64,000 nucleotides of DNA. Source: a virus. The notes below the pieces were generated by a model. The model saw nothing but the letters and a program-made list of their open reading frames with translations, made no database searches and was not told the origin of the DNA. Shown here piece after piece: positions 8,706 to 54,785 of this stretch (position 1 is its first letter; the number at the start of each line of letters is the position of its first letter). Location of the stretch: positions 98,718 through 162,717 of IMG/VR virus record IMGVR_UViG_3300006329_000001; one strand, written 5' to 3'. The position numbers were made by a program, and so were the translations under genes.

Positions 8706-8857
8706 ACTCTCCTCAACTGCCTTACATCTGTTACACCAAAGAGTGATTTACATTTGTTTTCAGCATCCTCTCGTAGGTTACTCTCACAAAGAAACTCTAC
8801 ACTAACTAAACGGTTGCTAGGGTAGAGTACTTGTGCTGTCCATGTTGTAGGTTTCAT
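8696..8857 (-). CDS. Hypothetical protein, 53 aa
   Basis: The ATG at 8857 forms an ATGA overlap with the stop of the 2OG oxygenase gene, and the 3' end overlaps the nfu start by ten bases. The product begins MKPTTWTAQVLYPSNRLVSV and has a compact alpha/beta look with two Cys. This pattern of a short basic protein with Q(V/L)LYPSN..V is one I associate with cyanophage small genes, but no function is known. Confidence 0.6.
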   Translation of the reverse strand: MKPTTWTAQVLYPSNRLVSVEFLCESNLREDAENKCKSLFGVTDVRQLRRVWN

Positions 8858-17044: not shown

Positions 17045-17614
17045 CTACCGAACATCCAAATTAAATGATAGAGTGGTTCTCTTAGTATCATTCTTTTGTA
17101 GGTGAACTCCATGACGTATGAAACTAGGAAATACTATCATATCACCTTGACGTATGGGTGGGTACATGATAGGGTCTTGTTTCATGATATGAGTATAACC
17201 TGAGATAGTATGATCTAGATTCATATTCTCAAAATAGAATTTAGCATCCTTCTCAGCATCATAGTTAATGAATATCACACCACTAAAATTGATGAACTCT
17301 GGAAATTGTATATGGTGATGTGGTTCTTGCCAATTACCTTGATTATATACATTTACCCAACTGTTAACTATTTTAATATTCACCTCAGGTGGAAAATATT
17401 GATATAGATATGGTGCTAAGAATTGTCCTAACTCATCAGGTGGTATTATGTCATTCTCATCAAAGAATGTTGTAGTTGTATCACAATTCCATTTATCCTT
17501 ACTACTTGATAATAGATGAGAACAAGAATCAGTTAATTGTCCAAAAATATCACCATGATCTCTAATATGAACATGATGATATTTGATAGGGAATAAATCG
17601 TATGTATTCCTCAT
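17045..17614 (-). CDS. 2OG-Fe(II) oxygenase
   Basis: 189 aa. Signatures: WQEPHHHIQFPEFINFSGVI near residues 97-116, then GDMIVFPSFIRHGVHLQ near 156-172 and the 2OG-binding Arg in TKRTTLSFNLDVR at the end. This is the phage-rich 2OG-FeII_Oxy_5 form. It shares a base with the end of the putative nuclease gene. Substrate unknown. Confidence 0.85.
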   Translation of the reverse strand: MRNTYDLFPIKYHHVHIRDHGDIFGQLTDSCSHLLSSSKDKWNCDTTTTFFDENDIIPPDELGQFLAPYLYQYFPPEVNIKIVNSWVNVYNQGNWQEPHHHIQFPEFINFSGVIFINYDAEKDAKFYFENMNLDHTISGYTHIMKQDPIMYPPIRQGDMIVFPSFIRHGVHLQKNDTKRTTLSFNLDVR

Positions 17615-18753
17615 TAAATTGCTTCCCTTAGTCTTAAGTATGTGTTGGTAGAGGTTGCTAACTCTTTTGATTTAGCAGGTCTTCTCTCTCCCCATGCTAA
17701 TAATACTTTCTTACCTTTATCCTTCTTCTCTCTTAATCCTTCGAACCTATCCTCATTTAATGCGTGCCATGCTCCATTTTTCTGAAGTGTGCAGGGTTGA
17801 TTGATAGTTAGGATCACACCTTTTGGATCGCATATTTCATAGAATACTGATTGACCTCTAGCATATGTGTTAACATTAGTAGCATTGCCTAGTCTCTCTT
17901 GTAACTTAGCATAATCCTTATTTGTTATGCTGAATAAGTAGTTTCCTTTACCTATGCACAATAAATGCTCATCAGATACAATACCAGTTGCTTTTAATAG
18001 TCTCTTGAGTACTAACTTATTATCAATCTGGTTAACTGCTTCAGATATAGTTTGAGCAACTTGCTTACCAATAGATTTGCAATCTGACTCCCATTGTGTC
18101 TTTACATCATCCCAGTATCTTGCTTGATCGCTATTGATGTAGAAATTACGAACTGCATCATTAATAGCATCTAATTGATGATAATAACCCAATAATTGTG
18201 GTGCAATCTCTTCTACTAAATTATCTCTTACTTCTCTCTTACTACCTTTAAACTTCTTACCTTGAGCATCCTTATAAATTCCTGGTGAACAATTAGTATT
18301 GTCAAATAAGAAATTATTTAATGTGCTGTTAAATGTACCTGAGCATACTTGTATAGAATCAAATCCATTTTTGTAGTTCTTAACTGATACTGATAACTGT
18401 TCACAATTATCAAATGTGATTAATAGATCACCTTTTAAATTCTTGTTTCTATACTCTGCATCTACACAAGTGAAGTAAAACTTTCTGTTAGGGAACTGAT
18501 TAATAAACTCTGGTAATAGTTGATGTACTGTCTTATCAACATTTGTTTTATACTTAGAGGATAGGAACTTGCTTAATACTCCTCTCTCTGTACAATATGA
18601 AATCCACTCCTCTTCCTGAGTAGCAGAGCAATGTGAAATTGCAACATCATGATTCTCTGCGTGCTTTTGTAGTTCTGAAGCAAGATAGATTTCAGCAGCA
18701 TCTTGGATGTAGTGATCTGTAGATGAACCTGCTCCTCTTTTTGTTTTTGTCAT
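17614..18753 (-). CDS. Putative PD-(D/E)XK-type restriction-like nuclease
   Basis: 379 aa from the ATG at 18753 (MTKTKRGAGSSTDHYIQDAA), which follows AAGGCG; an upstream in-frame start would overlap the previous gene. Residues about 123-143 (KGDLLITFD...LSVSVKNY) resemble the D...(E/S)xK active site of HaeIII-like restriction enzymes, followed by a Gly/Ser/Thr/Asn-rich loop. No methyltransferase is next to it. The neighbours are a helicase and 2OG oxygenases. It might degrade host or rival phage DNA. The assignment is tentative because the catalytic acid before Lys is a Ser. Confidence 0.4.
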   Translation of the reverse strand: MTKTKRGAGSSTDHYIQDAAEIYLASELQKHAENHDVAISHCSATQEEEWISYCTERGVLSKFLSSKYKTNVDKTVHQLLPEFINQFPNRKFYFTCVDAEYRNKNLKGDLLITFDNCEQLSVSVKNYKNGFDSIQVCSGTFNSTLNNFLFDNTNCSPGIYKDAQGKKFKGSKREVRDNLVEEIAPQLLGYYHQLDAINDAVRNFYINSDQARYWDDVKTQWESDCKSIGKQVAQTISEAVNQIDNKLVLKRLLKATGIVSDEHLLCIGKGNYLFSITNKDYAKLQERLGNATNVNTYARGQSVFYEICDPKGVILTINQPCTLQKNGAWHALNEDRFEGLREKKDKGKKVLLAWGERRPAKSKELATSTNTYLRLREAI

Positions 18754-18779
18754 TGATTCGCCTTTGCAAATAGTGTTTA

Positions 18780-18998
18780 TTAATCTAACCAAGAATCGTT
18801 TTCTGTAATCTTGAGTAGGTTGGGATTCTTTCGAACCTCATGTTGATAGTCTAACTCTTTATACAACTTATTGAGCAACTTTGTAACATAAGTTGATCTC
18901 TCTAATTTGTGTGATAATGAGAGTAGTTCCTCAACGTGCTGTTTACATTTTACAAGTGTAAAACATTCTTGGGTTGATACATCTATTTTACTATCCAT
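18780..18998 (-). CDS. Hypothetical helical protein, 72 aa
   Basis: The ATG at 18998 (MDSKIDVSTQECFTLVKCKQ) lies about 12 bases after GGAGG in the end of the 2OG gene. The product is helical and charged. It lies between the oxygenase and the putative nuclease and could be a partner of the latter. Confidence 0.55.
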   Translation of the reverse strand: MDSKIDVSTQECFTLVKCKQHVEELLSLSHKLERSTYVTKLLNKLYKELDYQHEVRKNPNLLKITENDSWLD

Positions 18999-19560
18999 TT
19001 GCAGAATAACCTCCTTGTGTTGTGATACTAGGTGAACTGTCCTTATGGTCAGCGATTGCACCTAAACTGATTCTCATTTTATCATGCACATAAGGTGGAT
19101 TCCCCTTATGTATCATGCTACTATCAAATACTATTATTCTACCTTGTCTAAATCTAACTCTATCCCCAGTTATAAATTCTGTATCACCTGATTCACCAAA
19201 TGCGTGGTATATTATACTTGTTGCAGGTATGTGTCTATCATCATGTAATTGTGATTCCATATCAGGTGATTGAGCATTAACTAATAACCTATGGATATGT
19301 GATATGGGTTTATCCTTACATATATCTTTCTTTATACATTCACAAAAATAACTAAAAAACCAATAGAATGGTGATGTATCACTAAAGTTATCATCCCTGA
19401 TAACAGTATTTCCCCAAAACCTAGTCTCTTTATAATCACCATAAGGTGCATTATTATAGTACATAGGGCAATATTCAGTTATCCATTGTGCCACGTCATC
19501 AACAATCCAATCAGGAAAATATCCATCAATGACCTTGACACCTTTAATATTATATGTCAT
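18991..19560 (-). CDS. 2OG-Fe(II) oxygenase (HxD form)
   Basis: 189 aa with a canonical HxD: MESQLHDDRHIPATSIIYHA near residues 100-119, then RQGRIIVFDSSMIHKGNPP with the distal His near 152, and MRISLGAIAD with the 2OG-binding Arg. Different subtype from its neighbour at 19557-20192. ATGA overlap with that gene. Substrate unknown. Confidence 0.85.
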   Translation of the reverse strand: MTYNIKGVKVIDGYFPDWIVDDVAQWITEYCPMYYNNAPYGDYKETRFWGNTVIRDDNFSDTSPFYWFFSYFCECIKKDICKDKPISHIHRLLVNAQSPDMESQLHDDRHIPATSIIYHAFGESGDTEFITGDRVRFRQGRIIVFDSSMIHKGNPPYVHDKMRISLGAIADHKDSSPSITTQGGYSANG

Positions 19561-20192
19561 GCTATATCTCTCCTTATCTCTTCTTGAGTTGGGATATACT
19601 TATTACCTGTTAACCTAAAGTTAGCAGATATAGTAATACGTTTATGTTCTGATTTTTGCATACTTACTTGATGATGTTGGTAGGCAGGGAATATAATAAT
19701 ATCCCCTTCTTTGACCTCAGGAAACCATGTAGTATGTACTGGGTAGTATTTACTAAAGTTACCTAAATGTACCTTTTGGTCAGGATGATAAAATATAAAA
19801 TTAGCATCCTCCTCAGGTATATAGTCTAAGAAATATGCACAACTAAATGTACAATCATCCCCACCTGCGTGAGTATGTACATCTTGCATATCTCCCTGAT
19901 TATATACATTAATCCATGACTCAAACATACTTATTCTATTGTTGACATCACCACCTAATTTCATGTGCATATCCATGAGACTATCTTGTATTGCCTTCTC
20001 AAAAACATCCCATGAAAAGTCTGTTAGATTTGTATTACTATCAAAACTGGATGATAGGTTACAATTCCACTCACTTGGATTATTTAATTGTGCATCATCT
20101 AATTCTTTAAGAAATAATCTCTTAAGGTATTGATGACTTGGCACTTCTCCATGATAATAAAATCCTGGAAATAGTGCCTTAATGTCTCCCAT
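19557..20192 (-). CDS. 2OG-Fe(II) oxygenase
   Basis: 211 aa: QDVHTHAGGDDCTFSCAYFL near 109-128, GDIIIFPAYQHHQVSMQ near 170-186, and HKRITISANFRL near the end. It belongs to the 2OG-FeII_Oxy_5 form and follows the helicase gene by one base, so it is probably cotranscribed with it. Substrate unknown. Confidence 0.85.
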   Translation of the reverse strand: MGDIKALFPGFYYHGEVPSHQYLKRLFLKELDDAQLNNPSEWNCNLSSSFDSNTNLTDFSWDVFEKAIQDSLMDMHMKLGGDVNNRISMFESWINVYNQGDMQDVHTHAGGDDCTFSCAYFLDYIPEEDANFIFYHPDQKVHLGNFSKYYPVHTTWFPEVKEGDIIIFPAYQHHQVSMQKSEHKRITISANFRLTGNKYIPTQEEIRRDIA

Positions 20193-20193
20193 G

Positions 20194-21429
20194 TTATGTT
20201 ACTAAAGAAACTGGTGGTTGTCCATCAACAAATATAGCATCAACAACTTTCTGTAGTCTCTTGATGATATGTTTAGTCTTAGGATGTACTGGTACTGTTA
20301 CATAACCTGTTGGTTTATTGTATAGTTTCCAGTTCATAGGTGCTAACTCACCTGAGTTGATTCTATTACGATCATCACTATCTAGTCTAATAACCCGACC
20401 TATAGTCTGTGCCATTTCGACAACTGATAAGTAACGTAACATAATAGTATGAGTCAAACCAGATACGTTAATGCCCTCTGAAAGTATGCTGTAATGAAAG
20501 CATATAAAGGATATTGTAGCATCTTTTGACCACTCATGCAATGTTTTAAGGAACTCATGACGTGAGACTTTCTTGTCATTAACGTATGCACCAAATTTAC
20601 TGGTAACGTGTAATACATTGATGTCTCTCTCTTTTAGTTCCTCTAAGAGTGAAGTATGTCCTAACATATGACCTAATACCTTAGAACTAGGAACTGATAC
20701 TAATACCTTAAGAATACCATCATCATAAGCATTATCAATGATGTCTATTATACTATCTTGTGCAGGTTTTTCTGTATTAAATGGAACAATAGTAGGTGGT
20801 AGTATAGTTCCACTCTCTATTAATTCTTGTGCCTTTACATTGCAAATAGTATTACCATAGACATCAACATTATTCATACCTCTTTCATGCTTACGAGATA
20901 TACGAGGTGTTGCTGTAAAGAAATAGTTGCGTGTAGCATATTCTGAGAAGTATTTGGTACTCTCAAAGAATGATCTCGCTACACTATTATGTGATTCATC
21001 ATAATATACTGTATCAACCTCAACATCTAAACACTCTTGTATCTTGTGAAGTGAATGATATGTTGTAAATATCAGTTGATTATTGATGCTATTGTGAAAC
21101 CATTGTGTGATCTCATCATGCTTAGTAGTATTAAGGTATTCACTCTTACCACTATGAACATGTAATACATCAGCATCACAATATTCCATGAAATCTCTGC
21201 ATAGTTGTTGTGCCAATAATATACGAGGGGCGACTACAACTAAAGTCTGTGGGATGCTTTTTGAGAACTGGTTTAGAGCATCCTGTATCATAATATATGT
21301 TTTGCCTCCACCAGTAGGCACTATGATTTGACCTTTATCATCCGATACCATAGAGTCTAATGCCCTCTGTTGATGTGGTCGTAATGAAATAGTCAATGAA
21401 TTAATAATGTAATAATTTAATTGTACCAA
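20194..21429 (-). CDS. SF2 DEAD/DEAH-box helicase, possibly UvsW-related
   Basis: 411 aa with the main SF2 motifs: LRPHQ (Q-motif-like) near residue 16, Walker A VPTGGGKT near 37-44, DESH near 145, TATPR near 172, and QTIGRVIR (motif VI) near 345. T4 UvsW, a branch-migrating helicase, is larger (587 aa); type I/III restriction helicases also share this form. The start is uncertain: TTG at 21429 sits directly after the terminator hairpin and no ATG precedes the helicase core. It is followed by three 2OG genes and a putative nuclease. Confidence 0.8.
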   Translation of the reverse strand: MVQLNYYIINSLTISLRPHQQRALDSMVSDDKGQIIVPTGGGKTYIMIQDALNQFSKSIPQTLVVVAPRILLAQQLCRDFMEYCDADVLHVHSGKSEYLNTTKHDEITQWFHNSINNQLIFTTYHSLHKIQECLDVEVDTVYYDESHNSVARSFFESTKYFSEYATRNYFFTATPRISRKHERGMNNVDVYGNTICNVKAQELIESGTILPPTIVPFNTEKPAQDSIIDIIDNAYDDGILKVLVSVPSSKVLGHMLGHTSLLEELKERDINVLHVTSKFGAYVNDKKVSRHEFLKTLHEWSKDATISFICFHYSILSEGINVSGLTHTIMLRYLSVVEMAQTIGRVIRLDSDDRNRINSGELAPMNWKLYNKPTGYVTVPVHPKTKHIIKRLQKVVDAIFVDGQPPVSLVT

Positions 21430-21430
21430 T

Positions 21431-21456
21431 AAAAAAGCACCTGTGTAAAGGTGCTT
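21431..21456 (-). terminator. Rho-independent terminator
   Basis: On the minus strand AAGCACCT pairs with AGGTGCTT around a six-base loop and runs into TTTTTT. It follows the 98-aa gene (stop at 21464) and ends one base before the likely helicase start. Confidence 0.8.
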
Positions 21457-21463
21457 GTGACAG

Positions 21464-21760
21464 TTACTTAATTGCTACTCTGTCAGGAACTTTGATGCCT
21501 GTATTCATAACAAAGTTAACTACAAATGCTTCTAGGTATATTAGAGGTAGTATAACAAAATCAATACCTGATAGTTTGGATAGATCAGGGGATGTTGTCT
21601 TGGGTTCTACCTTAATAACCTCAACTTTAGGTTTCGCAGGTGTTGTCTTGCGTGTCCTTCTTTTGCGAGGTGTTGTAGGTGTTGTCAATGTAGATAATAA
21701 TAAATGACGAGAGAAAACAAAACGATTAACTGAGAGGTTCGACTTAAAGACCTGTTCCAC
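21464..21760 (-). CDS. Predicted membrane-anchored protein, up to 98 aa
   Basis: A basic Thr/Pro/Lys-rich stretch (TTPTTPRKRRTRKTTPAKP) precedes a hydrophobic segment (IDFVILPLIYLEAFVVNFVM) near residues 66-85. The start is unclear: GTG at 21760 gives the longest form, and a TTG before TTPTTP a shorter one. Terminated by the hairpin downstream. Function unknown. Confidence 0.5.
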   Translation of the reverse strand: MEQVFKSNLSVNRFVFSRHLLLSTLTTPTTPRKRRTRKTTPAKPKVEVIKVEPKTTSPDLSKLSGIDFVILPLIYLEAFVVNFVMNTGIKVPDRVAIK

Positions 21761-21787
21761 CTCGTTTTAACTATGCTAGTTAAATCT

Positions 21788-21883
21788 TTAGTCATCTAAT
21801 GACTTAAGGGATGAGATCACCCATGCCTCAGTAGGTGGTTTGTTTTCCCATTTATATATTACCACAAGGTCAACCCATTGCAA
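21788..21883 (-). CDS. Possible 31-aa protein
   Basis: A TTG directly after the stop of the upstream gene opens QWVDLVVIYKWENKPPTEAW and ends at 21788. It has no clear ribosome site. The Trp/Pro content is coding-like, but it may not be translated. Confidence 0.3.
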   Translation of the reverse strand: MQWVDLVVIYKWENKPPTEAWVISSLKSLDD

Positions 21884-22069
21884 TCATGCTTGTGCCAGTT
21901 TGTTGACCTGTCCACACTTACAATCGGGGCAATCGATCTCTGATCGGTAACCTTCCAGTTTATTCAGTAGGTTTCCCAGTTCTAAACCATTTTGACAATA
22001 GTTCCCCATTGTCTTGCGAACTGTATCAATCATAAGATCAGTTTCTTGCTGACTAAAAACATATCTCAT
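21884..22069 (-). CDS. Hypothetical protein with CxxCxC motif, 61 aa
   Basis: The ATG at 22069 (MRYVFSQQETDLMIDTVRKT) makes an ATGA overlap with the upstream 51-aa gene. The C-terminus has CPDCKCGQV, a possible metal-binding knuckle. Function unknown. Confidence 0.6.
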   Translation of the reverse strand: MRYVFSQQETDLMIDTVRKTMGNYCQNGLELGNLLNKLEGYRSEIDCPDCKCGQVNKLAQA

Positions 22070-22221
22070 AGTAGTATTGCTCCAATAATAAATCCTTTGC
22101 CAAATGCTAGGCATAACATTTGATAGTCTGTTAGATTCCACTTAACTTGTATCTTCTTAGCAAGTGCTTTATCCCAATCTTTAATTTTAGTCAGGGCATT
22201 ACCCAAGTTAAAATTATACAT
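22066..22221 (-). CDS. Hypothetical protein, 51 aa, hydrophobic C-terminus
   Basis: Starts MYNFNLGNALTKIKDWDKAL and ends in a short hydrophobic segment (LAFGKGFIIGAILL), possibly membrane-inserted. ATG start; ATGA overlap downstream. Function unknown. Confidence 0.6.
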   Translation of the reverse strand: MYNFNLGNALTKIKDWDKALAKKIQVKWNLTDYQMLCLAFGKGFIIGAILL

Positions 22222-22239
22222 AAGTGTCCTCCTAAAATA

Positions 22240-22587
22240 CTATTTATTCTCAGGTTCTTTACCAGTTATTTCTTTTGGCAAATCCTCATTTCCAGGATGT
22301 TCTCTTATATAACCAGTATAATTTTTCTTGTTGTGGAAATGGGTGTCCTCCATCCATAAATCATCCCATTGATGTGCATAAACTAATACTTTTACCTGTC
22401 TCTTGCCGTTCATAGTCTCTGGGTCATCCCACTCATGTGTAACGACAGTAATATATTGATCTGATATGAAATCAATATAACCTTCCTCTCCGTCAGGTGT
22501 CTTGACTCTCATACCCTTCTCAAGTGACTTGAGTATGTTTCTTAATTCCAATCTTACAGACTCCGATAGAAAAATAGGTGTACTCAT
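22240..22587 (-). CDS. Hypothetical protein with KOW/SH3-like N-terminus, 115 aa
   Basis: GMRVKTPDGEEGYIDFISDQ near residues 25-44 followed by ITVVTHEW has the look of a small SH3-like barrel. The rest is Trp/His-rich with a charged tail. It overlaps the 2OG gene start by four bases. Function unknown. Confidence 0.6.
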   Translation of the reverse strand: MSTPIFLSESVRLELRNILKSLEKGMRVKTPDGEEGYIDFISDQYITVVTHEWDDPETMNGKRQVKVLVYAHQWDDLWMEDTHFHNKKNYTGYIREHPGNEDLPKEITGKEPENK

Positions 22588-23189
22588 AATTTTAGTAGTG
22601 AAGTTGGATTACCAAAATCACCCTTAAGAAATATATTAAATGCTAGTGAGTATCTCTCTCGCATTATTTGATTAGGTGTAACTAGATGCACTAAAGAACT
22701 GGGGAACATTACCACCATGCCATCCTTAGGTTGTATTGTCCATTGCTTACTATTATATAGATTACCTGTTTTGATACGAGGTGCAACCATACAATAAGAT
22801 TGATCTCTGAATACTAAATCACCACATCTTTCATGTGTTTGTAGATAACAAATACCACTAAACATGCTGTTGCGGTGGGAATGGTCATGTGTTTTCTCTT
22901 GGAATTTATGTCTATTAATCCATGAGCAAGTATATGTTATTTCATGACATCTTTCATCAATTCCTAATACTTTCCATACATATTCTTCCACATGATATTG
23001 TAACCAATCTCTAAATTTAGGTAGTTTATTCAGAACATTCATTTCGAATGTCTGACTACCTTCTCTTGGTGCTTTGTGATACTCCCATCCCTCAATGTCT
23101 CTAATAATATTAGGCATTGATGGGTCTTCTGCAACATATACAGGGGATGAGAACAGAGGTAGTATATCAGTTCTTACTGAAGTTCGCAT
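22584..23189 (-). CDS. 2OG-Fe(II) oxygenase
   Basis: 201 aa. EKTHDHSHRNSMFSGICYLQ near 98-117 carries the first metal-ligand region, MVVMFPSSLVHLVTPNQ near 157-173 the distal His, and RERYSLAFNIF the 2OG-binding Arg. 2OG-FeII_Oxy_5 form. ATG start; overlaps the next oxygenase gene by 23 bases. Confidence 0.85.
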   Translation of the reverse strand: MRTSVRTDILPLFSSPVYVAEDPSMPNIIRDIEGWEYHKAPREGSQTFEMNVLNKLPKFRDWLQYHVEEYVWKVLGIDERCHEITYTCSWINRHKFQEKTHDHSHRNSMFSGICYLQTHERCGDLVFRDQSYCMVAPRIKTGNLYNSKQWTIQPKDGMVVMFPSSLVHLVTPNQIMRERYSLAFNIFLKGDFGNPTSLLKL

Positions 23190-23655
23190 TGATTAGAATC
23201 CTATTCTTGTGTTCACTTGGAGAATGACCAGTATGTTCTATCTTGCCATCAAATAATAATAGTCTGTTCGCTTTCGGTTCTACTTGCCATGTAATTCCTT
23301 CTTCTTTTAGTAGGGTGTTGCCATCACTATCATTAACATAGTATATACACACCCAATGTGGTTCTTTCTCATCAACGTGCCACCCATGTCTATACCCATT
23401 TGGATTAAGTATTGTCATGTCTGCTCTAACCCTCAAGACATTTCGGGCATTTAGGGCAGATTCCATCATTTCTACGAGGTGTGCAAATATGGGGTGTTCC
23501 TCAGCAGTTAACCAATGATTAAAACCAAATGCTTGTAGGTCATCATTACCATAGGTTAAAGTTTGTTGCATAAACCAAGGGAACTCCCATGATGTCATGT
23601 AATCATGTAGTTCTTTCCATTTGTCATGATCGAGGAAGTTATCCTCAATCTTCAT
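23167..23655 (-). CDS. 2OG-Fe(II) oxygenase (HxD form)
   Basis: 162 aa from the ATG at 23655 (MKIEDNFLDHDKWKELHDYM), the usual start of this family; an in-frame ATG ten codons earlier is possible. HGWHVDEKEPHWVCIYYVN has the HxD pair, RLLLFDGKIEHTGHS the distal His, KNRILINANF the Arg. This compact form resembles phage hydroxylases in the same family as 24520-25050. Substrate unknown. Confidence 0.85.
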   Translation of the reverse strand: MKIEDNFLDHDKWKELHDYMTSWEFPWFMQQTLTYGNDDLQAFGFNHWLTAEEHPIFAHLVEMMESALNARNVLRVRADMTILNPNGYRHGWHVDEKEPHWVCIYYVNDSDGNTLLKEEGITWQVEPKANRLLLFDGKIEHTGHSPSEHKNRILINANFSKN

Positions 23656-23821
23656 GCTTGAGATGTAAGGCGGACGCAATTTCATCTATCAGTTCACGTT
23701 GTTCTTCTGGAAGTTTTCCCAACTTATTATACCATTCTTTTTGTAATAAGAAAAGTGCCTTAGTTAATGTTTGTTTATGCTTCTGCTGTAGAGTCAAACA
23801 CTCTACTGCTATTGATGTCAT
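23645..23821 (-). CDS. Hypothetical helical protein, 58 aa
   Basis: Starts MTSIAVECLTLQQKHKQTLT and continues as one long helix (KLPEEQRELIDEIASALHL). Overlaps the oxygenase start by eleven bases. A late-type promoter lies about 26 bases upstream. Function unknown. Confidence 0.6.
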   Translation of the reverse strand: MTSIAVECLTLQQKHKQTLTKALFLLQKEWYNKLGKLPEEQRELIDEIASALHLKHED

Positions 23822-23846
23822 GATGCCCCCACATGCGGATTAATAC

Positions 23847-23854
23847 TATTTAGA
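23847..23854 (-). promoter_or_regulatory. Late-promoter-like site before the 58-aa gene
   Basis: Minus strand TCTAAATA, one base off the T4 late consensus at the second position, 26 bases before the ATG at 23821 and overlapping the end of the JmjC-like gene. Confidence 0.45.
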
Positions 23855-24548
23855 ATAGTTGATACGATTCCCGATCACTACACTCACACCTCTTAGGACA
23901 CCAGATAGGTACTGATATTGAGAGTCTCTTCTTAGAGGGATATGCTTTGTGTAGTTTCCTTTGTGGCAAGTATAGCACATCTCCCGCTTTAAGCACAGTA
24001 TCCAACTGAATTGTTAGTTCATCCTGACTTGGTACATGTGGGTACTCTTCTGTGCTTGGTATCAATGCACTTGCTCTGTTCTCATACACTACCCATCTAG
24101 TCTCACCATCCATCTGCATAATATAAGTTGGACCTTGATCCCAATGTGGATGAAATGATTTTGCTTGTGGTCTTGTACCTAAGTTCATAAAGATATGACA
24201 GTCAGCACACCCATCAAATCTAGTCTCGAACTCAGTTAATAGTTCTTCTACCTTACTATTACCATGACCATACTGTGATATATTTACTGTCCATCCATCC
24301 TTTGCATACGCAAATAGATCAGTCTTCTTATATACTCCCTTATAAAACCATGGTTCTTCTACTGTCTCTAAATCTATTCTCTTACCATCATCACCTAATA
24401 CTGTAGTGATGTAATTCCATGGGGCATTTAGGGCATTTTCTGCATCCTCCCATGTGACTATCTGACCTACAGCATTATGCCATACTCTAGGTTCATCATT
24501 ATATTTGTAGACCTCAGGGTCAAGAAATTCGTAGTTTAAAATTGACAT
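23850..24548 (-). CDS. JmjC/cupin-type oxygenase, ribosomal-oxygenase-like (copy 1)
   Basis: 232 aa. Residues 133-137 (HPHWD) give the HxD metal pair, followed by QMDGETRWVVYE, then GDVLYLPQRKLHKAYPS with the third metal His near 200. H.D...QL.GE..W...........GD.LY.P....H is the pattern of bacterial YcfD/RoxA and human MINA53/NO66, which hydroxylate ribosomal proteins. It is paralogous to 25034-25738. Substrate inferred only. Confidence 0.78.
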   Translation of the reverse strand: MSILNYEFLDPEVYKYNDEPRVWHNAVGQIVTWEDAENALNAPWNYITTVLGDDGKRIDLETVEEPWFYKGVYKKTDLFAYAKDGWTVNISQYGHGNSKVEELLTEFETRFDGCADCHIFMNLGTRPQAKSFHPHWDQGPTYIMQMDGETRWVVYENRASALIPSTEEYPHVPSQDELTIQLDTVLKAGDVLYLPQRKLHKAYPSKKRLSISVPIWCPKRCECSDRESYQLF

Positions 24549-25050
24549 TCATTGCAATCCTAATACCCTGTGTAGGTGATGATGAAGCATGGATCTCTGA
24601 TCCACCGAATACTATCATCTTACCTTTAAGTGGTGACTCTCTGTGAATAATTTTATGATCCTTATCAAAGAAAAATGTATCACCCTCTGCTTCATTGACA
24701 TAATATAATGCAGTAGTGTGATCGAAATCATAATCTGTATGTGGTGCATGATGTAGCATACCATCAGGATAACATAGTCCTAATCGTACACGATATATGT
24801 CCTCCACTCTTGCATCACATTTCTCTGCAATGCAATATAATGCACTCTCAAATAATCCTGTCTGTTCACTAACAGGTTGATACTCATCTATTAATTGATG
24901 AGAGAATGACTGTGCCTTGATACCATCATGACTGTCTGCAACTTGATATGTAGTATCATCTAACCAATACCATGGAAATGTAGGGTTACGACAAATACTG
25001 TCCAGTTGATTAACTATAGGTTCTGGTAACGTATTAAAAACGGATTTCAT
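24520..25050 (-). CDS. 2OG-Fe(II) oxygenase (HxD form)
   Basis: 176 aa from the ATG at 25050 (MKSVFNTLPEPIVNQLDSIC), preceded by AGGAG at good spacing. LHHAPHTDYDFDHTTALYYVN shows the HxD pair, IVFGGSEIHASSSP the distal His, IRIAMNVNFKL the Arg. Lies between two JmjC-like paralogues and overlaps both. Substrate unknown. Confidence 0.85.
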   Translation of the reverse strand: MKSVFNTLPEPIVNQLDSICRNPTFPWYWLDDTTYQVADSHDGIKAQSFSHQLIDEYQPVSEQTGLFESALYCIAEKCDARVEDIYRVRLGLCYPDGMLHHAPHTDYDFDHTTALYYVNEAEGDTFFFDKDHKIIHRESPLKGKMIVFGGSEIHASSSPTQGIRIAMNVNFKLRIS

Positions 25051-25738
25051 ACTGTCTCCTATCACTTGGTACATCACGAGGATATGCACATGGTATGCTC
25101 ATACTTAATCTCTTACCACCTGGAAATGGTTTATGGTATGTCCTCGCAGGGAAATACATTACATCACCTGCTTCTAGTGTAACGTCAAGATCAACTGTTA
25201 GGTTATGTCCTTCATTATCAGGACTATATGGGTTGTCATCCATCTTAATTAATGCACTACACCTCTCTTTATATACTTGCCAGTGTGTTTCTCCTTCTAA
25301 CTGACATATAAAATTGGGTGGTAAATCCCAGTGTGCACCAAAGGATACACCATTTGGTTTAGCATTACCAAATATATGTGCATCACAATTACAATCATAT
25401 CTGTCCTCTATATTTTCTAATAGATTATCTACTGCTGCATTAAAATGTCCATACTGTTCTATAGTAAATGTTAACCCCTCCTCAATACCTTGGAACAGTT
25501 CTTCCTTAATAGGAAACTTATCTTCATACCATACCTCAAACTTCTCAGTAAGGTCTAGTCTCCTACCATCAGTATTGAGCAAGCAACATCTATAATGCCA
25601 TGGGTTATTCATGCACTTGGTTACATCATCCCATGTACAATACTGTTCGGGATTCTTTAATGCACCTTTCCAGACTCTTGGTCTATCATCTGTCTGGAAT
25701 ATATTTGGATTTAGAAATGGTAAATTAAGAACTTCCAT
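25034..25738 (-). CDS. JmjC/cupin-type oxygenase, ribosomal-oxygenase-like (copy 2)
   Basis: 234 aa from the ATG at 25738 (MEVLNLPFLNPNIFQTDDRP), preceded by AAGGAG. FGAHWDLPPNFICQLEGETH carries HxD and the GE.(R/H)W motif, and GDVMYFPARTYHKPFPGGKR the third metal His. N-terminal FLNPNIFQTDDRPRVWKGAL aligns with FLDPEVYKYNDEPRVWHNAV of copy 1, so the two are paralogues with the single oxygenase between them. Role as for copy 1, unproven. Confidence 0.78.
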   Translation of the reverse strand: MEVLNLPFLNPNIFQTDDRPRVWKGALKNPEQYCTWDDVTKCMNNPWHYRCCLLNTDGRRLDLTEKFEVWYEDKFPIKEELFQGIEEGLTFTIEQYGHFNAAVDNLLENIEDRYDCNCDAHIFGNAKPNGVSFGAHWDLPPNFICQLEGETHWQVYKERCSALIKMDDNPYSPDNEGHNLTVDLDVTLEAGDVMYFPARTYHKPFPGGKRLSMSIPCAYPRDVPSDRRQYEIRF

Positions 25739-26363
25739 AGTCTCCTTCACTTGGGTCTAGTGGGAACCCACTAAAATTTATACTAATAGCAATGCGTTCA
25801 TCTTTGCCATTTGGTTGTGTCTCATGATATAACCATGATGGGAATATAACATAATCATATGATTTTGCTTTATATGTATAATGTTTCTTATCGTTAATAA
25901 AACTAGATTCTAGAGGTGACATACCCCAAATAGTTTCTAGTGGATCACGAAATAATAAATGACCATAGTCAGGGTTCTTCTTAAGATAATATACACATGA
26001 TACATGTGACTTACCTCTACCTGCTGAGTGATTATGCTCTGATGTAGTATCTCCTTCGAAATGCTGATTCGACCACATACTGTCAATATACATGTGGAAG
26101 TCTCTGCGATAATCAAGAGTATTATCCCAGTAATCATGTACTTCATCTAACATAGGCATGGTTAACCAATCAAATGTAGGTGATTGATACAATTCCATTC
26201 CTTGTTTTAGTTCACCAGTTGATTTACCTGATTCACCTGCCCATACACCACGATTAGCAACTGACCATGCTTCATCTAAGAATGATAGTGATGCTGTCAG
26301 TTGTTCATCAGTTGGTACTATCGTTCCCGTCACTACGGGTACCGAGAATAGTTGTTCTATCAT
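25725..26363 (-). CDS. 2OG-Fe(II) oxygenase
   Basis: 212 aa. TSEHNHSAGRGKSHVSCVYYL near 117-137, YDYVIFPSWLYHETQPN near 174-190 and ERIAISINFSGFP near the end: the 2OG-FeII_Oxy_5 signatures with distal His and Arg. Overlaps the next gene upstream by 56 bases. Substrate unknown. Confidence 0.83.
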   Translation of the reverse strand: MIEQLFSVPVVTGTIVPTDEQLTASLSFLDEAWSVANRGVWAGESGKSTGELKQGMELYQSPTFDWLTMPMLDEVHDYWDNTLDYRRDFHMYIDSMWSNQHFEGDTTSEHNHSAGRGKSHVSCVYYLKKNPDYGHLLFRDPLETIWGMSPLESSFINDKKHYTYKAKSYDYVIFPSWLYHETQPNGKDERIAISINFSGFPLDPSEGDYGSS

Positions 26364-27024
26364 GACTTTTAATAATATCAGACATATCTCTTTTGTTCCT
26401 GTTCGGAATCAAATTAAATGAGATACTAATACGATCTTCATCAGTATGGTTCTCTCTCACACCATGAGATACCCATGATGGAAATAGAACTAATCGACCT
26501 TCTTTTGGTGGATAAGACATAGTTGCATGAGTATGTGGTGCTTCTGCCTTACTCAAATCCTCTGCTAATCCGAGAGAATGAACTACATATCCCTCCATAG
26601 GATTCTTATGGAATGTGATACTACCACAATCCCCTTCCTTAGGAGTCTTGACATAAAATGCACCAGACATTATAGAACCTGGATGCACATGTACCTCATT
26701 GTATCCTCCCTTATTATTAATATTAATCCATACGTTAGCAAATTCCAACGTAGTAGCACATGACTCAAATGAATCAAATGCTTTATTACCCCAGTGTTTA
26801 ATTTGTCTGCATAAATTAGCAAACTCATCATCCTCTGGTTCTTGCACTAATTCCTCACCAAAAAAGTCAGGGGACTGATAATTCAGTATTCCCCTGTTAC
26901 TTCTTTCTTTTGTAGGCATACCCTCAGCAATACCATAACATATTTCTTGCATTGCTGCTACATCAATATCTAAATCCAACCACCAAATAGGAGTGGGGAA
27001 AATATAATCAAGATTGAGATCCAT
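26308..27024 (-). CDS. 2OG-Fe(II) oxygenase
   Basis: 238 aa. NEVHVHPGSIMSGAFYVKTP near 119-138, GRLVLFPSWVSHGVREN near 183-199 and DRISISFNLIPN: a clean example of the 2OG-FeII_Oxy_5 form. Its start overlaps the stop of the 185-aa gene by one base. Substrate unknown. Confidence 0.86.
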   Translation of the reverse strand: MDLNLDYIFPTPIWWLDLDIDVAAMQEICYGIAEGMPTKERSNRGILNYQSPDFFGEELVQEPEDDEFANLCRQIKHWGNKAFDSFESCATTLEFANVWININNKGGYNEVHVHPGSIMSGAFYVKTPKEGDCGSITFHKNPMEGYVVHSLGLAEDLSKAEAPHTHATMSYPPKEGRLVLFPSWVSHGVRENHTDEDRISISFNLIPNRNKRDMSDIIKSHDRTTILGTRSDGNDSTN

Positions 27025-27581
27025 TAGGTCAACTTGTTAAGATCGTCTCTTACTTCTCCTTGCCAATCTGATAATTTACTATAGTCTTTCTTCTTAGTTG
27101 CACTATCTGAGTACTTAGAGGAAGTTGCTACCTTGATATTACTTCTCTCCTTCGCCATTTCAGATTCTAACCATGGTTGCTCAGGTTCTTTAAGTACAAA
27201 CTTACGATACATGTTGATAGTCTCAAGACCACCTTCGATCTTAACCAAATCATCCCTCATTTCATTGAGTTCAGTGAAATTGATTCTAGTCTCAGGTCTA
27301 TCGAATGACATGGATGTCATACCTTCTTGCATCTCTTGATACTTAAGGAACATTTCTCTATGCTGATAGATAAGATTCTTCCATAAGTCATCAAGTGTTT
27401 GCACTGCTTCATATGCAGTTTTTACTTCTTCTATTACCTCAGGGGGCAATTCGGGCAATCCTAGGTCTTCTAAATCCTGATTTATATTTTCTGGATCGAG
27501 ATTAGTTGGTGCACCACTGGGGTTAATACCATCTACCTCAGCATCCTCAAGGTTAGTTACCTTTTTTACATCTTCTGACAT
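27024..27581 (-). CDS. Unknown acidic coiled-coil protein, 185 aa
   Basis: An acidic, disordered N-terminus (about 1-60) is followed by helices (KTAYEAVQTLDDLWKNLIYQ near 69-88; LNEMRDDLVKIEGGLETINM near 122) and a Lys/Ser-rich tail. It separates the oxygenase run from the halogenases and overlaps an oxygenase start by one base. The helical form could suit a scaffold or adaptor. No family is recognised. A KLPELPPE segment is encoded by a dispersed GGGCA repeat at 27444. Confidence 0.55.
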   Translation of the reverse strand: MSEDVKKVTNLEDAEVDGINPSGAPTNLDPENINQDLEDLGLPELPPEVIEEVKTAYEAVQTLDDLWKNLIYQHREMFLKYQEMQEGMTSMSFDRPETRINFTELNEMRDDLVKIEGGLETINMYRKFVLKEPEQPWLESEMAKERSNIKVATSSKYSDSATKKKDYSKLSDWQGEVRDDLNKLT

Positions 27582-27582
27582 T

Positions 27583-29163
27583 TTACTCCTTATAAATGGT
27601 CTGGTTTAAAAACTCGTAAGACGAGGGTAAAGTCTCACAATATTCTAGCATGTGTTGGTGCCACTCGTCAATGATCTTCTCTGCGTTGGTGAGTGCTTGC
27701 TCATCCTCCTCAGGAATTATCTCATTGCACATCCTTGATAAAGGTAGTGTCACTTTATTTATAGGATTAAATCCCATACCTGCTGCACAATATCTGGGTC
27801 CATCATTATACTCTATGCTACCAAGATTTGTTAAGAAATCAAAGTTTATGTACTTATGTGACCCATAACGCATGAATAGGTTGTCAGTACCACAGAAATC
27901 ATAGTCCACCACCTCTGATGCTGTCCTCCAGAAATCTGTCTTACGTTCAGAGAAAGCATAGTGAGCAGCAACGAAGTTCTTATGTCCTTCTATCTCATGG
28001 TCTGCTATCTGATTAATCATTTCCTTTTCTACCTTAGGAATGAACCCCCTACGTCCTGATAGTGCATTACATAATCTAATCACTTGTTCATGTGTAACCA
28101 ACAGACCAGTGGACTCTAATGGTTCTACAAAACAATTAGATAAACCAACAGCAATAACATTACCAACAAATGATTTCTTATGCTTACCCATCTTAAATGG
28201 GATAGTTCTATATGATACCTGATCTGCTCTATACTTTCCTCTTGTCTTTACCAAATAATTATGCAACTCTACTTGTGCTTCATCTTCTGATATAAAATTA
28301 CTAGAGTAAACATATCCTAGTCCACCACGTTCCCACAATGGTACATCCCACACCCATCCATTATCTAATGCTGTACAGTTGGTTGTATTAGTAACTTCTT
28401 TCTCAGGATTTTCATGTGGTACTGATATTGATATTGCTTTATCATTTAATAGGCAACCTCCATCATTATAATGGAATGACTCAAAGGGTACATCCATTGC
28501 TTCTCCTAATAGCAATGACTTAAACCCACTGCAATCTACAAATAGATCAGCACTTAATGTCTTACCATTATATACTACACAATCAATATCACCATTCTCT
28601 TTTTTAATTACTCCCGTTACTGTACCCGTAATATGTTTTACTCTCTTACATACATTATTCTTTAACCACTGTCCAAACTTAATAGCATCTATATGATATG
28701 CAGTATCAACCCATGGTTTCCAATAGGTAGTATCATATGTGAGTTTATTATATTTGGTGAAGTGTGCTACTGGATTAAATGTAGTAGCAAATGTATCGTT
28801 AGTATATTTTCCTGGTTTAGTTGCATTAAGTACGAACCATGCCATCCATGGAACTTTACTTTCCATCTCATCTGGTGATCCAAAGGGATATAACCAACTC
28901 TCTCCTTTCTTCCAAAAGTCATTAAAACTAATAGCAGTTTTATAGGTTGCACCTATATCTTTCATCCAATCAGAATCTTTGAGTCCTAATAATGATATAA
29001 ATCTACGAATCTGTTGTAGTGATGACTCACCCACACCTATAACACCCTGATTTGGATCCTCAATTAATGTGACGTTAACATGAGGGCATAGCACATCCAA
29101 TGCTGCAGCAGTCATCCAACCACTACTACCACCACCAACAATAACTATGTCCTTAACTTGCAT
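27583..29163 (-). CDS. Flavin-dependent tryptophan-halogenase-like protein (copy 1)
   Basis: 526 aa, the usual family length. FAD-binding GGGSSGWMTA near residues 10-19, VGESS near 44, the Lys of GATYK at 75 (equivalent to the catalytic Lys of PrnA/RebH), WVWDVP at 270-275 (the WxWxIP family motif) and FVEPLESTG at 345-353. These enzymes use FADH2, O2 and chloride or bromide to halogenate indole-type substrates; the phage substrate is unknown. It needs a flavin reductase, presumably host-encoded. Overlapped by its paralogue by eleven bases. Other members of the family act on pyrrole, phenol or peptide-bound Trp. Confidence 0.85.
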   Translation of the reverse strand: MQVKDIVIVGGGSSGWMTAAALDVLCPHVNVTLIEDPNQGVIGVGESSLQQIRRFISLLGLKDSDWMKDIGATYKTAISFNDFWKKGESWLYPFGSPDEMESKVPWMAWFVLNATKPGKYTNDTFATTFNPVAHFTKYNKLTYDTTYWKPWVDTAYHIDAIKFGQWLKNNVCKRVKHITGTVTGVIKKENGDIDCVVYNGKTLSADLFVDCSGFKSLLLGEAMDVPFESFHYNDGGCLLNDKAISISVPHENPEKEVTNTTNCTALDNGWVWDVPLWERGGLGYVYSSNFISEDEAQVELHNYLVKTRGKYRADQVSYRTIPFKMGKHKKSFVGNVIAVGLSNCFVEPLESTGLLVTHEQVIRLCNALSGRRGFIPKVEKEMINQIADHEIEGHKNFVAAHYAFSERKTDFWRTASEVVDYDFCGTDNLFMRYGSHKYINFDFLTNLGSIEYNDGPRYCAAGMGFNPINKVTLPLSRMCNEIIPEEDEQALTNAEKIIDEWHQHMLEYCETLPSSYEFLNQTIYKE

Positions 29164-30739
29164 AAATCTTTCTTAACGTATAATCGTATGACGATTCCAT
29201 ATCCTTTGTCCAATCATACATGGTCTTCCTCCATTCGTCAAATGTCCTATCTGCTTCATTTAGATAGAACTCATCATAATCCTCAGACAGATTATTCATC
29301 AGACGCTTGAGGTATAGAGTATGGTCACAAATAGGATTAAATCCCATACCTGCTGCTATATATCTGACACCATCATTATGTGCAGGATCACCGATCCACT
29401 CATATGATACATGCTTCTCTGCTGAGTATTTGACAAATAGATTATCTAATCCACCCTCTGTGAAATTATATGATATATCATCTGTTACTGTCTGCCAATA
29501 TTTACCTTCTCTTCTACTGAAAGCATAGTGAGCAGAAATAAATGTCATGAAACCATCTATCTCTAGGTCTGCTACTAGATTCATCATATCTATTTCTGCT
29601 CTATTAGTATATCCTTCTCTACCTGCTAGAGTTGTACATAGTCTAGTGATCTGTTCATGTGTAGTTACTAAACCAGTTGCTTCTAATGGTTCTACAAAAC
29701 AATTAGAGAGACCAATAGCACATACATTCTTTACCCATGACTTCTCATGCTTTCCATTCTTAAATGGAATAGTTCTCATGGATGCTTTGTCTGCTCTCTC
29801 CTTTCCTCTTGTCCTAACCAAATAATCATATAGCTCTTGCTCTGGATTCTCTGCGAAATCCTTTGAGTACACATATCCTACACCAGATCTCTCCCATAAT
29901 GGTACATCCCAGACCCAACCATTATCTATAGCAGTACAGTTAGTGCTATTGGTTATCTCTGTAGATGGGTCTACATGGGGCATGTGACACGCTACAGCAG
30001 TGTCATTTAGCAATGAACCCCCATCATTATGGTGATAACTAATAAATTTAGATCCACATGTCTGTTCTAATAGTAGAGACTTAAATCCTGTACAATCAAT
30101 ATATAAATCTGCTTCGAACTCTCTACCATCATCCGTGTATAATTTCTCAATATAACCACGGGCATCTTGGGCAAATTTAGCAACATTACCCGTATGATAT
30201 TCCAATCCTCTTGGCAAACAATAGTTATCCTTTAACCACTGTCCAAACTTAAGTGCATCAAAATGATATGCACTGTCCACCCATGGGTTCCAATGGGTTT
30301 CATCATCACTTAATTTATTATACTTAGCTAATGCACCTACACTATTAAAACACTCAGCAAATGTACCCCTGTGATATTTCTCAGGTCTAGTTAAATTTAA
30401 TGAGAACCATGACATCCACCCATGTGGTACTTCCTTCAGTACTTTCTCAGCACTACCGAATGGATAATCCCATGTCTCACCTTTCTGATAGAAATCATTA
30501 AATCTTATATTTACCTTATAAGTTGCACCAGTCGCTGCCATCCACTGTTCATCTTTTAAGTCCAATAACTTAAAAAACTCGTTGATCTGTCCGAGAGTAG
30601 ATTCCCCGACACCACTAACAGGGTAGTCGGGACTCTCGATCAACGAGGTTTTAATGTGTGGGCATAATTTTAGGAGTGCTGCAGCAGTCATCCAACCTGC
30701 AGTTCCACCCCCAACAATGAGGACATTACGAATTTTCAT
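29153..30739 (-). CDS. Flavin-dependent tryptophan-halogenase-like protein (copy 2)
   Basis: 528 aa and clearly paralogous to 27583-29163: GGGTAGWMTA near 10-19, GESTL near 46, Lys75 in GATYK, WVWDVP near 270 and FVEPLEATG near 345. All family catalytic residues seem intact, so neither copy is a pseudogene. The pair may act on different substrates or form a heterodimer. Overlaps copy 1 by eleven bases; the upstream gene ends 15 bases away. Confidence 0.85.
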   Translation of the reverse strand: MKIRNVLIVGGGTAGWMTAAALLKLCPHIKTSLIESPDYPVSGVGESTLGQINEFFKLLDLKDEQWMAATGATYKVNIRFNDFYQKGETWDYPFGSAEKVLKEVPHGWMSWFSLNLTRPEKYHRGTFAECFNSVGALAKYNKLSDDETHWNPWVDSAYHFDALKFGQWLKDNYCLPRGLEYHTGNVAKFAQDARGYIEKLYTDDGREFEADLYIDCTGFKSLLLEQTCGSKFISYHHNDGGSLLNDTAVACHMPHVDPSTEITNSTNCTAIDNGWVWDVPLWERSGVGYVYSKDFAENPEQELYDYLVRTRGKERADKASMRTIPFKNGKHEKSWVKNVCAIGLSNCFVEPLEATGLVTTHEQITRLCTTLAGREGYTNRAEIDMMNLVADLEIDGFMTFISAHYAFSRREGKYWQTVTDDISYNFTEGGLDNLFVKYSAEKHVSYEWIGDPAHNDGVRYIAAGMGFNPICDHTLYLKRLMNNLSEDYDEFYLNEADRTFDEWRKTMYDWTKDMESSYDYTLRKIYAS

Positions 30740-30754
30740 AATAAAGGATTAAAT

Positions 30755-31429
30755 TTATCCTACATCAGTAGTTATACGATCATCAGAGTCAGGTGCATGT
30801 GATGTTGGCACATCAGATCCACTTACAACATCTGGATTAGTATCCACTGCTTCTGTGACAGGTGCTTGAGTTACAGGTTGTGCATCAACATGATCTGAAC
30901 CTGTTGCTACATCACCACGATCAGCAAATTCACAAAGTTTAAACTCTCTGCGAACACCAATTTCCATTTCCTCTGGAGTATTCCAAGCGGGCATGTTGTC
31001 ATCATGTGGGAATGGTTGATCTGGTTCTTCTGCTACTCTTTCAGTAACAGTTGCAGCAGGGTCTGCAGGGTCAACTACTTCTATCTCTTTCCATGTGATA
31101 GGACGTGCTTCTGATTTAACTTTCTTAATGTGCTGATAGAACTTACCTTCTTTAGCTTTCTCACCAAAGAGACCTGCATCTATATCTTTCCAGAGCATTC
31201 CTAATTGAGTACCTGGTTCACCATAGGCAATAAGTTTCTCTTGCAATGGATCTGTGTATAAGAAGTCAGGGATCCACTCTCCTAACATCATTCTCCATTC
31301 GATATCTACCTCGTCAGGTGCATCAACCCATTTAAGTGAAGATCCTGGACCTGTGTAGACTTCGAACTCTTCGCCTTTCTCGACGATATCGGTAATGAAA
31401 CCGTCTGATCTAATTAAACAACTTTTCAT
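30755..31429 (-). CDS. Unknown acidic protein near the adhesins, 224 aa
   Basis: Trp-containing N-terminal domain (SDGFITDIVEKGEEFEVYTG; LKWVDAPDEVDIEWRMMLGE; PITWKEIEVV), then a low-complexity Asp/Val/Thr-rich tail from about residue 170. It follows the glycine-rich adhesin gene with one base between them and precedes the halogenases, so it may be a fibre-assembly or adaptor protein. No family is recognised. Confidence 0.55.
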   Translation of the reverse strand: MKSCLIRSDGFITDIVEKGEEFEVYTGPGSSLKWVDAPDEVDIEWRMMLGEWIPDFLYTDPLQEKLIAYGEPGTQLGMLWKDIDAGLFGEKAKEGKFYQHIKKVKSEARPITWKEIEVVDPADPAATVTERVAEEPDQPFPHDDNMPAWNTPEEMEIGVRREFKLCEFADRGDVATGSDHVDAQPVTQAPVTEAVDTNPDVVSGSDVPTSHAPDSDDRITTDVG

Positions 31430-31430
31430 T

Positions 31431-32231: not shown

Positions 32232-32255
32232 TGATTACTCTGTCTCCTTCCTTGT

Positions 32256-32263
32256 TATTTATA
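32256..32263 (-). promoter_or_regulatory. T4-type late promoter
   Basis: Exact TATAAATA on the minus strand, 25 bases before the ATG of the first glycine-rich adhesin gene, in the 32-base gap between the two paralogues. Confidence 0.75.
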
Positions 32264-54589: not shown

Positions 54590-54780
54590 TAGAGACTTAC
54601 TCTGTTCTTATTCTGTGCTTGTTTTCTTTGCTGCTCAACCTCATTAATATGTGCAATTAGAAGGTTGACATAAATGTCTCTCTCCCAAGGCATCATATTT
54701 TCCAATTCAGTAAGACTATATTTGTGATGTTGCATCAATGCGAAATTAGTCTTGTACATGTTCTCAAGACTATCGTGCAT
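54589..54780 (-). CDS. Small tail-assembly chaperone frame after gp26, 63 aa
   Basis: From the ATG at 54780 (MHDSLENMYKTNFALMQHHK; YSLTELENMMPWERDIYVNL), helical, Gln/Asn-rich at the end. It starts six bases after the gp26 stop with no near ribosome site (GGAGGG is 27 bases away). It is reached in frame from gp26 by a -1 shift, so it may be made mainly as the C-terminal part of a gp26 fusion. Immediately followed by the tape-measure-like genes, as with lambda G/GT. Confidence 0.6.
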   Translation of the reverse strand: MHDSLENMYKTNFALMQHHKYSLTELENMMPWERDIYVNLLIAHINEVEQQRKQAQNKNRVSL

Positions 54781-54785
54781 CAATG

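Follow-up and report, generated by a model that had tools for sequence, protein, structure and literature searches.

A cyanophage gene cassette linking VirX1-type flavin halogenases and iron oxygenases to a glycine-rich fibre tip

INTRODUCTION

The flavin-dependent halogenase VirX1 of cyanophage Syn10 (PDB 6QGM) accepts many small aromatic compounds in vitro, and no native pathway is listed for it (PMC8407142). Related flavin halogenases modify ribosomal peptides and proteins (PMC10858898, PMC10286304, PMC12518702), and in clusters for ribosomally synthesized and post-translationally modified peptides (RiPPs), such as those of a proteusin brominase and of ChlH, a gene-encoded peptide or protein lies beside the flavin halogenase that modifies its residues (PMC10858898, PMC12518702). 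Cyanophages S-SSM6a and S-SSM7 carry a cluster of halogenase, 2-oxoglutarate (2OG), and cupin enzymes (Iyer et al. 2021, PMC7824862), and in phage Pam3 the gene for a receptor-binding fibre, gp24, is directly followed by the one for its chaperone, gp25 (PMC9608196). Here we describe a stretch of 64,000 nucleotides, hereafter the window (positions 98718-162717 of the 162,717-base virus record IMGVR_UViG_3300006329_000001), in which two VirX1-family halogenases and an array of iron-dependent oxygenases lie beside two glycine-rich fibre-tip genes and a gene that we call c3. The record is a near relative of cyanophage P-RSM6, with identities of 99.2% for the halogenase, 97.9% for the JmjC protein, and 98.6% for the fibre. 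With somewhat better than even confidence, we read the locus as a late-expressed tip tailoring cassette, the enzymes of which would add halogen and hydroxyl groups to the fibre tip ahead of assembly.

The halogenases of the window are of the same family as VirX1 and stand in the same context, and VirX1 itself belongs to the fibre-tip cassette: in Syn10, tip, c3, JmjC, and halogenase genes all fall inside about 10 kb (the VirX1 sequence matches Syn9 gp42 over the parts compared). VirX1 has been studied on small aromatics, whereas the cassette context here suggests a protein substrate. With Pam3 gp24/gp25 (PDB 7YPX), the locus shares the tip fold (Z 20.4), the order of fibre and then candidate chaperone, and, for that candidate, a predicted layout of beta-sandwich plus helices (PMC9608196). 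Pam3 differs in that its tip is without E116 and three conserved histidines, and no halogenase or oxygenase of the cassette families was found in the 50 of its 54.5 kb that were scanned; for phage Bxb1, annotation, as distinct from the same profiles, lists no halogenase or oxygenase in the part of the genome shown. What we presume to be the substrate here is, unlike in RiPP clusters, not a leader-core precursor but a virion adhesin that is folded and has a candidate chaperone, and the locus has many oxygenases besides. No RiPP-type precursor was obvious among the listed open reading frames, for which no dedicated search was made, and the tightly linked protein is the 266-amino-acid tip. The S-SSM6a/S-SSM7 cluster differs in its distant halogenase (28.6% identity), its carbamoyltransferases and its sugar genes, with no tip seen. 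Self-modification of the virion has a likeness in mycobacteriophages, which glycosylate their own virion proteins with phage-encoded enzymes, although the chemistry is different. We found no paper linking halogenases to phage fibres in the open-access literature, subscription journals lying outside the search.

RESULTS AND DISCUSSION

The halogenases and the fibre tip are linked in both directions

The five genes at the core of the cassette are as follows.

27583..29163, minus strand: flavin-dependent halogenase 2, 526 amino acids, VirX1 family (PF04820, E 7e-95; 53% identical to halogenase 1)
29153..30739, minus strand: flavin-dependent halogenase 1, 528 amino acids, VirX1 family (PF04820, E 1e-96; best PDB match VirX1 6qgm, E 8e-105, 527 residues)
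30755..31429, minus strand: c3, probable fibre-tip chaperone, a Tfa-like candidate (gene right after the tip, ordered as Pam3 gp24-gp25)
31431..32231, minus strand: glycine-rich fibre tip 1, 266 amino acids, candidate substrate (PF21722, E 1.9e-8; phrog_863)
32264..33067, minus strand: glycine-rich fibre tip 2, 267 amino acids, candidate substrate (PF21722, E 4.4e-9; 82% identical to tip 1)

Both halogenases are VirX1-type members of PF04820, and halogenating activity is predicted. The flavin motif GGG..GWM, K75, and E350 are invariant in the 11 halogenase sequences aligned; the two single residues are presumably catalytic, a role that we assign by analogy with PrnA.

To measure clustering over whole records, we took 26 phage records chosen for holding a halogenase, some of them interrelated, and made 5000 circular shifts. 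PF13759 genes lay within 12 kb of a halogenase in 95 of 130 cases (38.3 expected; shift maximum, 72), and 44 of 46 Gly_rich_2 matches lay within 6 kb (8.2 expected; shift maximum, 22). Clustering of oxygenases with halogenases is far above chance. Neighbourhoods of 87 loci (80 IMG/VR halogenase loci, six annotated phages, and the window) were then grouped by BLAST without prior names. Around the halogenase we found 2OG genes at 69 loci (281 genes), tips at 61 (160 genes), c3 at 61 (one each), the accessory genes c4 and c5 at 50 and 42, and JmjC genes at 38. The gene order of tip, c3, halogenase, optional c4 and c5, and 2OG/JmjC genes is kept in annotated phages from several genera and in most of the 87 loci, and P-RSM6, S-SZBM1, S-WAM1, Syn9, S-CREM1, P-TIM40, and S-RIM44 have in common the succession of tip, c3, halogenase, accessory gene, and oxygenase array.

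The reverse test used the tip as the sole query and gave 80 viral loci, 74 of them with enough flank; some are on contigs that are also in the halogenase set, although they were retrieved by an independent query. A halogenase was present at 73 of the 74, c3 at 73, a 2OG-type gene at 65, and a JmjC gene at 47. Of 50,697 phage records, 19 have the tip, and every one of these also has a halogenase and JmjC; c3 occurs in 20, which are exactly the 20 best halogenase records. Relatives of the fibre shaft occur in 460 of the same records; therefore, it is the tip, as opposed to the shaft, that is linked to the halogenase. A collection of 84,980 bacterial and archaeal species held only two tip loci, both with tip, c3, and halogenase. 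The original prediction had taken the enzymes for one system dedicated to tailoring, as opposed to a set of unconnected auxiliary genes, and this reading is well supported by a linkage of tip and c3 to halogenase that is near one-to-one in both directions. Oxygenases scattered singly and without halogenases, named beforehand as an outcome contrary to it, did not occur.

The main rival explanation is hitchhiking, in which the enzymes adjoin the tip through common descent and kept gene order, in a region of host recognition that is hypervariable, and have some other target in the cell. The halogenase tracks the tip even though the shaft is far more widespread, the module is found at varied genome positions with unrelated upstream fibres (beside gp13 with a different upstream fibre in S-RIM44 and Sf-FR1), and large contigs with other neighbours (L030-L039; labels of this kind denote compared loci or contigs) retain tip, c3, and halogenase. 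These observations make hitchhiking unlikely, even granting that T4-like phages conserve gene order, that many of the loci come from related cyanophages, and that the host-recognition regions of pelagiphages and cyanophages gather unrelated genes (PMC7029224).

The borders of the locus also need to be moved. The stretch from 17045 to 30739, originally described as an island of oxygenases and halogenases, has artificial ends: synteny puts the cassette at about 22240 to 33807, with the tips and the chaperone candidate included, and 17045-20192 is a looser second oxygenase group beside a helicase gene. The end at 30739 fell one gene short of the likely substrate, with c3 (30755) and the tips (31431, 32264) directly upstream. 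On the same strand upstream of the halogenases are c3, the two PF21722 tips, a 2OG gene at 33064, and then fibre shaft genes. In comparison with contig L022, each of the 14 cassette genes tested shows purifying selection, with ratios of nonsynonymous to synonymous substitution rates of 0.08 to 0.31.

The tip combines a predicted receptor-binding fold with conserved residues of its own

A profile sequence search of the tip against the PDB gave no match, and a fold search was needed. The AlphaFold model of the tip has a confidence (pLDDT) of 78, rising above 90 across much of the tip domain. It matched Pam3 fibre gp24 (7ypx_A; Z 20.4, 183 residues, 2.7 A), the Bxb1 tail tip (Z 14.8), and the glycine-rich domains of ALK/LTK (Z 8 to 10), and the tip as modelled has the Pam3-like glycine-rich receptor-binding fold. 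The S16 gp38 adhesin (6F45), which we had expected beforehand, was absent from the fold-match lists in which Pam3, Bxb1, and ALK/LTK came up.

Next, we examined which residues are conserved in 209 distinct tips. E116, Y149, F161, and H179 are present in 100% of them, H202 in 99%, and H224 in 95%. Of the 30 conserved glycines, 21 are found in Pam3 gp24 and 24 in Bxb1 gp33; E116, H179, H202, and H224 are absent from both, in a control of two sequences. We suggest H179, H202, H224, and Y149 as candidate modification sites. The C-terminal part of the tip is 6.0% histidine, versus 2.5% in all neighbouring proteins, and 0.4% lysine. Other PF21722 domains of the same records (S-CREM1, 15.7 kb; G007, 54 kb; G013, 68 kb) were tried as an internal control and rejected as unusable, not being of the tip family.

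Variation is usually greatest in receptor-binding tips. In two pairwise comparisons, the tips were 85 to 94% conserved and most enzymes less so (45 to 91%), and few genes of the cassette are as well conserved as those of the tips. This is in line with a more tentative idea, to which we give well under even weight, that the phages vary the chemistry of the adhesin rather than its sequence: a strongly conserved tip would bear His, Tyr, or Trp residues that a variable set of enzymes has halogenated and hydroxylated after translation. To our knowledge, such a tip would be the first halogenated virus adhesin.

The model of c3 has strands in residues 1 to 55 (a beta-sandwich) followed by helices, the layout of Pam3 gp25, and among 350,542 chains its best Foldseek match was that chaperone (7ypx_a), at a weak E of 0.2 (VIA Z 4.0, 49 residues). 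A profile comparison of c3 with Pam3 gp25 was not significant. Because the fold match is weak and the profile comparison not significant, a role of c3 as fibre-tip chaperone is likely rather than proven.

Two tip genes were noted apart from these comparisons. At 54758-55282 of S-CREM1 (OP535465), a second tip copy has five in-frame TAA stops, with only a shortened frame annotated, and looks like a decayed tip. At 6773-7831 of L104 (Sf-CH11), a protein annotated as type II secretion GspG-like is actually of the Gly_rich_2 type (E 1.2e-7), and its gene has a halogenase gene and two 2OG genes as neighbours.

A late promoter element precedes tip and c3 genes

32256..32263, minus strand: TATAAATA, a T4-type late promoter element, 25 bases before the start of tip 1

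Of 155 tip genes, 21 have this element shortly before them (1.3 expected), most often near -32, and so do 14 of 60 c3 genes (0.6 expected). The element precedes only 2 of 276 2OG genes and 0 of 42 JmjC genes, and the oxygenase frames overlap, with a median gap of -4. Over the whole window the element is not enriched (6 versus 7.6 expected), and it is informative only by its position before tip and c3 genes. The element before tip and c3 genes, together with the overlapping oxygenase frames, therefore suggests that the cassette enzymes are expressed late with the tip, the T4-type late promoter being the only type modelled.

The promoter position also bears on the proposal that the halogenases make or alter a small molecule, as antibiotic protection or to stabilize host metabolites. 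Metabolite halogenation has been put forward in PMC2984593 and PMC10452541, and for S-SSM6a-type clusters in PMC7824862, and the taste of VirX1 for many small aromatics in vitro (PMC8407142) agrees with it. It does not predict linkage to the tip, and here the halogenases are linked to tip and chaperone candidate behind late promoters; moreover, carbamoyltransferase, nonribosomal peptide synthetase, and other scaffold-building genes were not found in the cassette. We regard it as improbable for this locus.

The oxygenase array contains 2OG and JmjC enzymes

The oxygenases of the cassette and of the second group are listed below.

17045..17614, minus strand: 2OG oxygenase, second group (PF13759, E 8.8e-13)
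18991..19560, minus strand: 2OG oxygenase-like, second group (no Pfam match; phrog_274, E 7.6e-27; phrog_81, weak, E 0.0015)
19557..20192, minus strand: 2OG oxygenase, second group (PF13759, E 4.7e-14; orthologues in the P-RSM6 clade)
22584..23189, minus strand: 2OG oxygenase (PF13759, E 1.4e-21)
23167..23685, minus strand: 2OG oxygenase, HxD type (PF13640, E 8.5e-6; phrog_274)
23850..24548, minus strand: JmjC_2 oxygenase, phrog_8014 (PF08007, E 1.3e-18; HxD...H intact)
24520..25089, minus strand: 2OG oxygenase, HxD type (PF13640, E 1.9e-5, just below the cut-off; phrog_274)
25034..25750, minus strand: JmjC_2 oxygenase, phrog_8014 (PF08007, E 6e-16; HxD...H intact)
25725..26363, minus strand: 2OG oxygenase (PF13759, E 2.1e-14; positional orthologue at +3 in the P-RSM6 clade)
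26308..27024, minus strand: 2OG oxygenase (PF13759, E 1.9e-27; positional orthologue at +2 in the P-RSM6 clade)
33064..33807, minus strand: 2OG oxygenase in the fibre operon, directly upstream of tip 2 (PF13759, E 1.2e-9; same-place orthologues in L021, L022, and L025)

Between 17045 and 30739, we found eight 2OG-Fe(II) oxygenases (starts at 17045, 18991, 19557, 22584, 23167, 24520, 25725, and 26308), two JmjC_2 proteins (23850, 25034), and two proteins of the tryptophan halogenase family (27583, 29153); all of these are minus-strand genes, most of them with overlapping frames. The 13 genes first counted there included nine 2OG genes, of which eight are present by Pfam or PHROG and a ninth was not found in that interval; the JmjC pair, the halogenase pair, and the overlapping minus-strand arrangement held, as did three further 2OG genes at 8854, 33064, and 47405. 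Pfam matches to PF13759 or PF13640 cover seven of the eight proteins, the one at 24520 scoring 25.9 bits versus a cut-off of 27, and the protein at 18991 was assigned through PHROGs only. The metal motifs were confirmed, with HxH...H...R in the PF13759 type, HxD or HxE in the others, and HxD...H in the JmjC pair. There is nothing unusual in the HxH form, which the solved PF13759 relatives 2rg4 and 3bvc share.

The family name of phrog_274, "DNA endonuclease V," was rejected as the function of the proteins at 18991, 23167, and 24520 because the latter two match PF13640 and all three have the iron motif. RefSeq phage records have taken over this label for proteins that motif and Pfam assign to the 2OG oxygenases, apparently as a systematic misannotation. 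In L017, three cassette genes (24936-25547, 21204-21995, and 26125-26667) are labelled "minor coat protein" or "ferrochelatase," and their S-CREM1 counterparts are labelled 2OG oxygenases. One of the three matches DUF6445 and, weakly, PF13640, and the other two are without a Pfam match; they may be further iron oxygenases.

Of the four candidate substrates originally proposed, the phage fibre is now strongly favoured by the linkage and by the late promoter at tip and c3. Host surface proteins and ribosomal proteins were two others, which the array might alter late in infection, and the ribosomal form of this idea has one basis, the sequence match of the JmjC pair to ribosomal oxygenases: the closest PDB relatives are the histidyl hydroxylases NO66 and MINA53, and from this likeness the pair may be predicted to be protein His/Arg hydroxylases. 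A substrate cannot be read from family likeness, linkage to genes for host proteins was not observed, and JmjC genes sit in the tip cassette at 47 of 74 tip loci, so that a host-protein target seems decidedly improbable. Phages do alter their DNA, and 2OG enzymes can act on bases. A Pfam scan of ten island oxygenases gave no TET/JBP-type domain, the cassette is without base-modification partner genes, and neither the late promoter nor the linkage finds a logic in base modification, which we consider exceedingly improbable.

A different role was suggested for cyanophage 2OG oxygenases generally, namely, that by using up 2OG they reshape the nitrogen signalling of the host through NtcA (PMC3037559). 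Such an effect leaves the halogenases, the JmjC pair, and the tip linkage unexplained and gives no reason for diverged orthologues at fixed positions instead of one enzyme. For this cassette we find it very hard to credit, although less so than base modification.

A working model for tip tailoring

We propose that the tip and c3 would be made late and that c3 would hold the nascent tip. The halogenases could then add a halide (bromide, chloride, or iodide) to aromatic side chains or histidines in the distal loops, and the 2OG and JmjC oxygenases could hydroxylate other tip residues, after which the modified tip trimer would be mounted on the fibre and act in adsorption. The tip as substrate, the residues changed, and an effect on host binding or virion stability are what we infer.

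Several points weigh against this model. Genomic linkage cannot prove an enzyme-substrate pairing; association is what was observed, and no modified residue has been seen. Tryptophan, the usual substrate of the halogenase family, makes up only 0.7% of the C-terminal part of the tip, and the conserved His/Glu set, for which the control was only two sequences, could instead form a site for a metal or for the chaperone. The match of c3 to a chaperone is itself weak (E 0.2, Z 4.0). A flavin reductase partner was not identified, no search having been aimed at one. Halogenases of other clades stand elsewhere, with sbcC (S-B64), psbA (S-MbCM6), or carbamoyltransferases (S-SSM7); JmjC occurs in 8 phage records without a tip; and the tip cluster is absent from about 30% of the 87 halogenase loci. 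Because of these last three points, we limit the claim to the VirX1 clade.

For VirX1, the surrounding genes single out the fibre tip, and about four of its residues, as a testable candidate for the native substrate. If the model is right, phages chemically alter the part that contacts the host, adding a layer of recognition invisible to sequence comparison alone. Some cyanophage "auxiliary metabolic genes" would then have to be reread as virion-maturation genes, and the cassettes would be a source of protein-acting halogenases and hydroxylases.

Other genes and variants of the cassette

Three further genes of the window lie in or near the cassette.

20194..21429, minus strand: DEAD/ResIII helicase, between the two oxygenase groups (PF04851, E 8e-21)
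27024..27581, minus strand: c5, small accessory protein (homologues at 42 of 87 halogenase loci, mostly right after the halogenase or after halogenase-c4)
35946..39518, minus strand: tail fibre shaft protein, 1,190 amino acids, upstream of the tips (phrog_529)

The helicase is probably unrelated to the cassette. In the Pfam scan, c3 and c4 matched no family. Two contigs of the cellular collection carry the cassette, L186 (Nonlabens xiamenensis) and L187 (Prochlorococcus AG-418-C09), and both are probably phage DNA in the assemblies. A large-phage variant (L030-L036, L039) has tips, c3, f21 (409 amino acids, with a C-terminal Cys cluster), halogenase, f22 (243 amino acids), and at most one 2OG gene; f21 and f22 belong to no Pfam family. 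Finally, at the halogenase loci L026, L027, L077, L082, and L089, where the glycine-rich tip is absent, another small protein, f43, occurs in three tandem copies; it has no Pfam match and is possibly an independent type of fibre tip.

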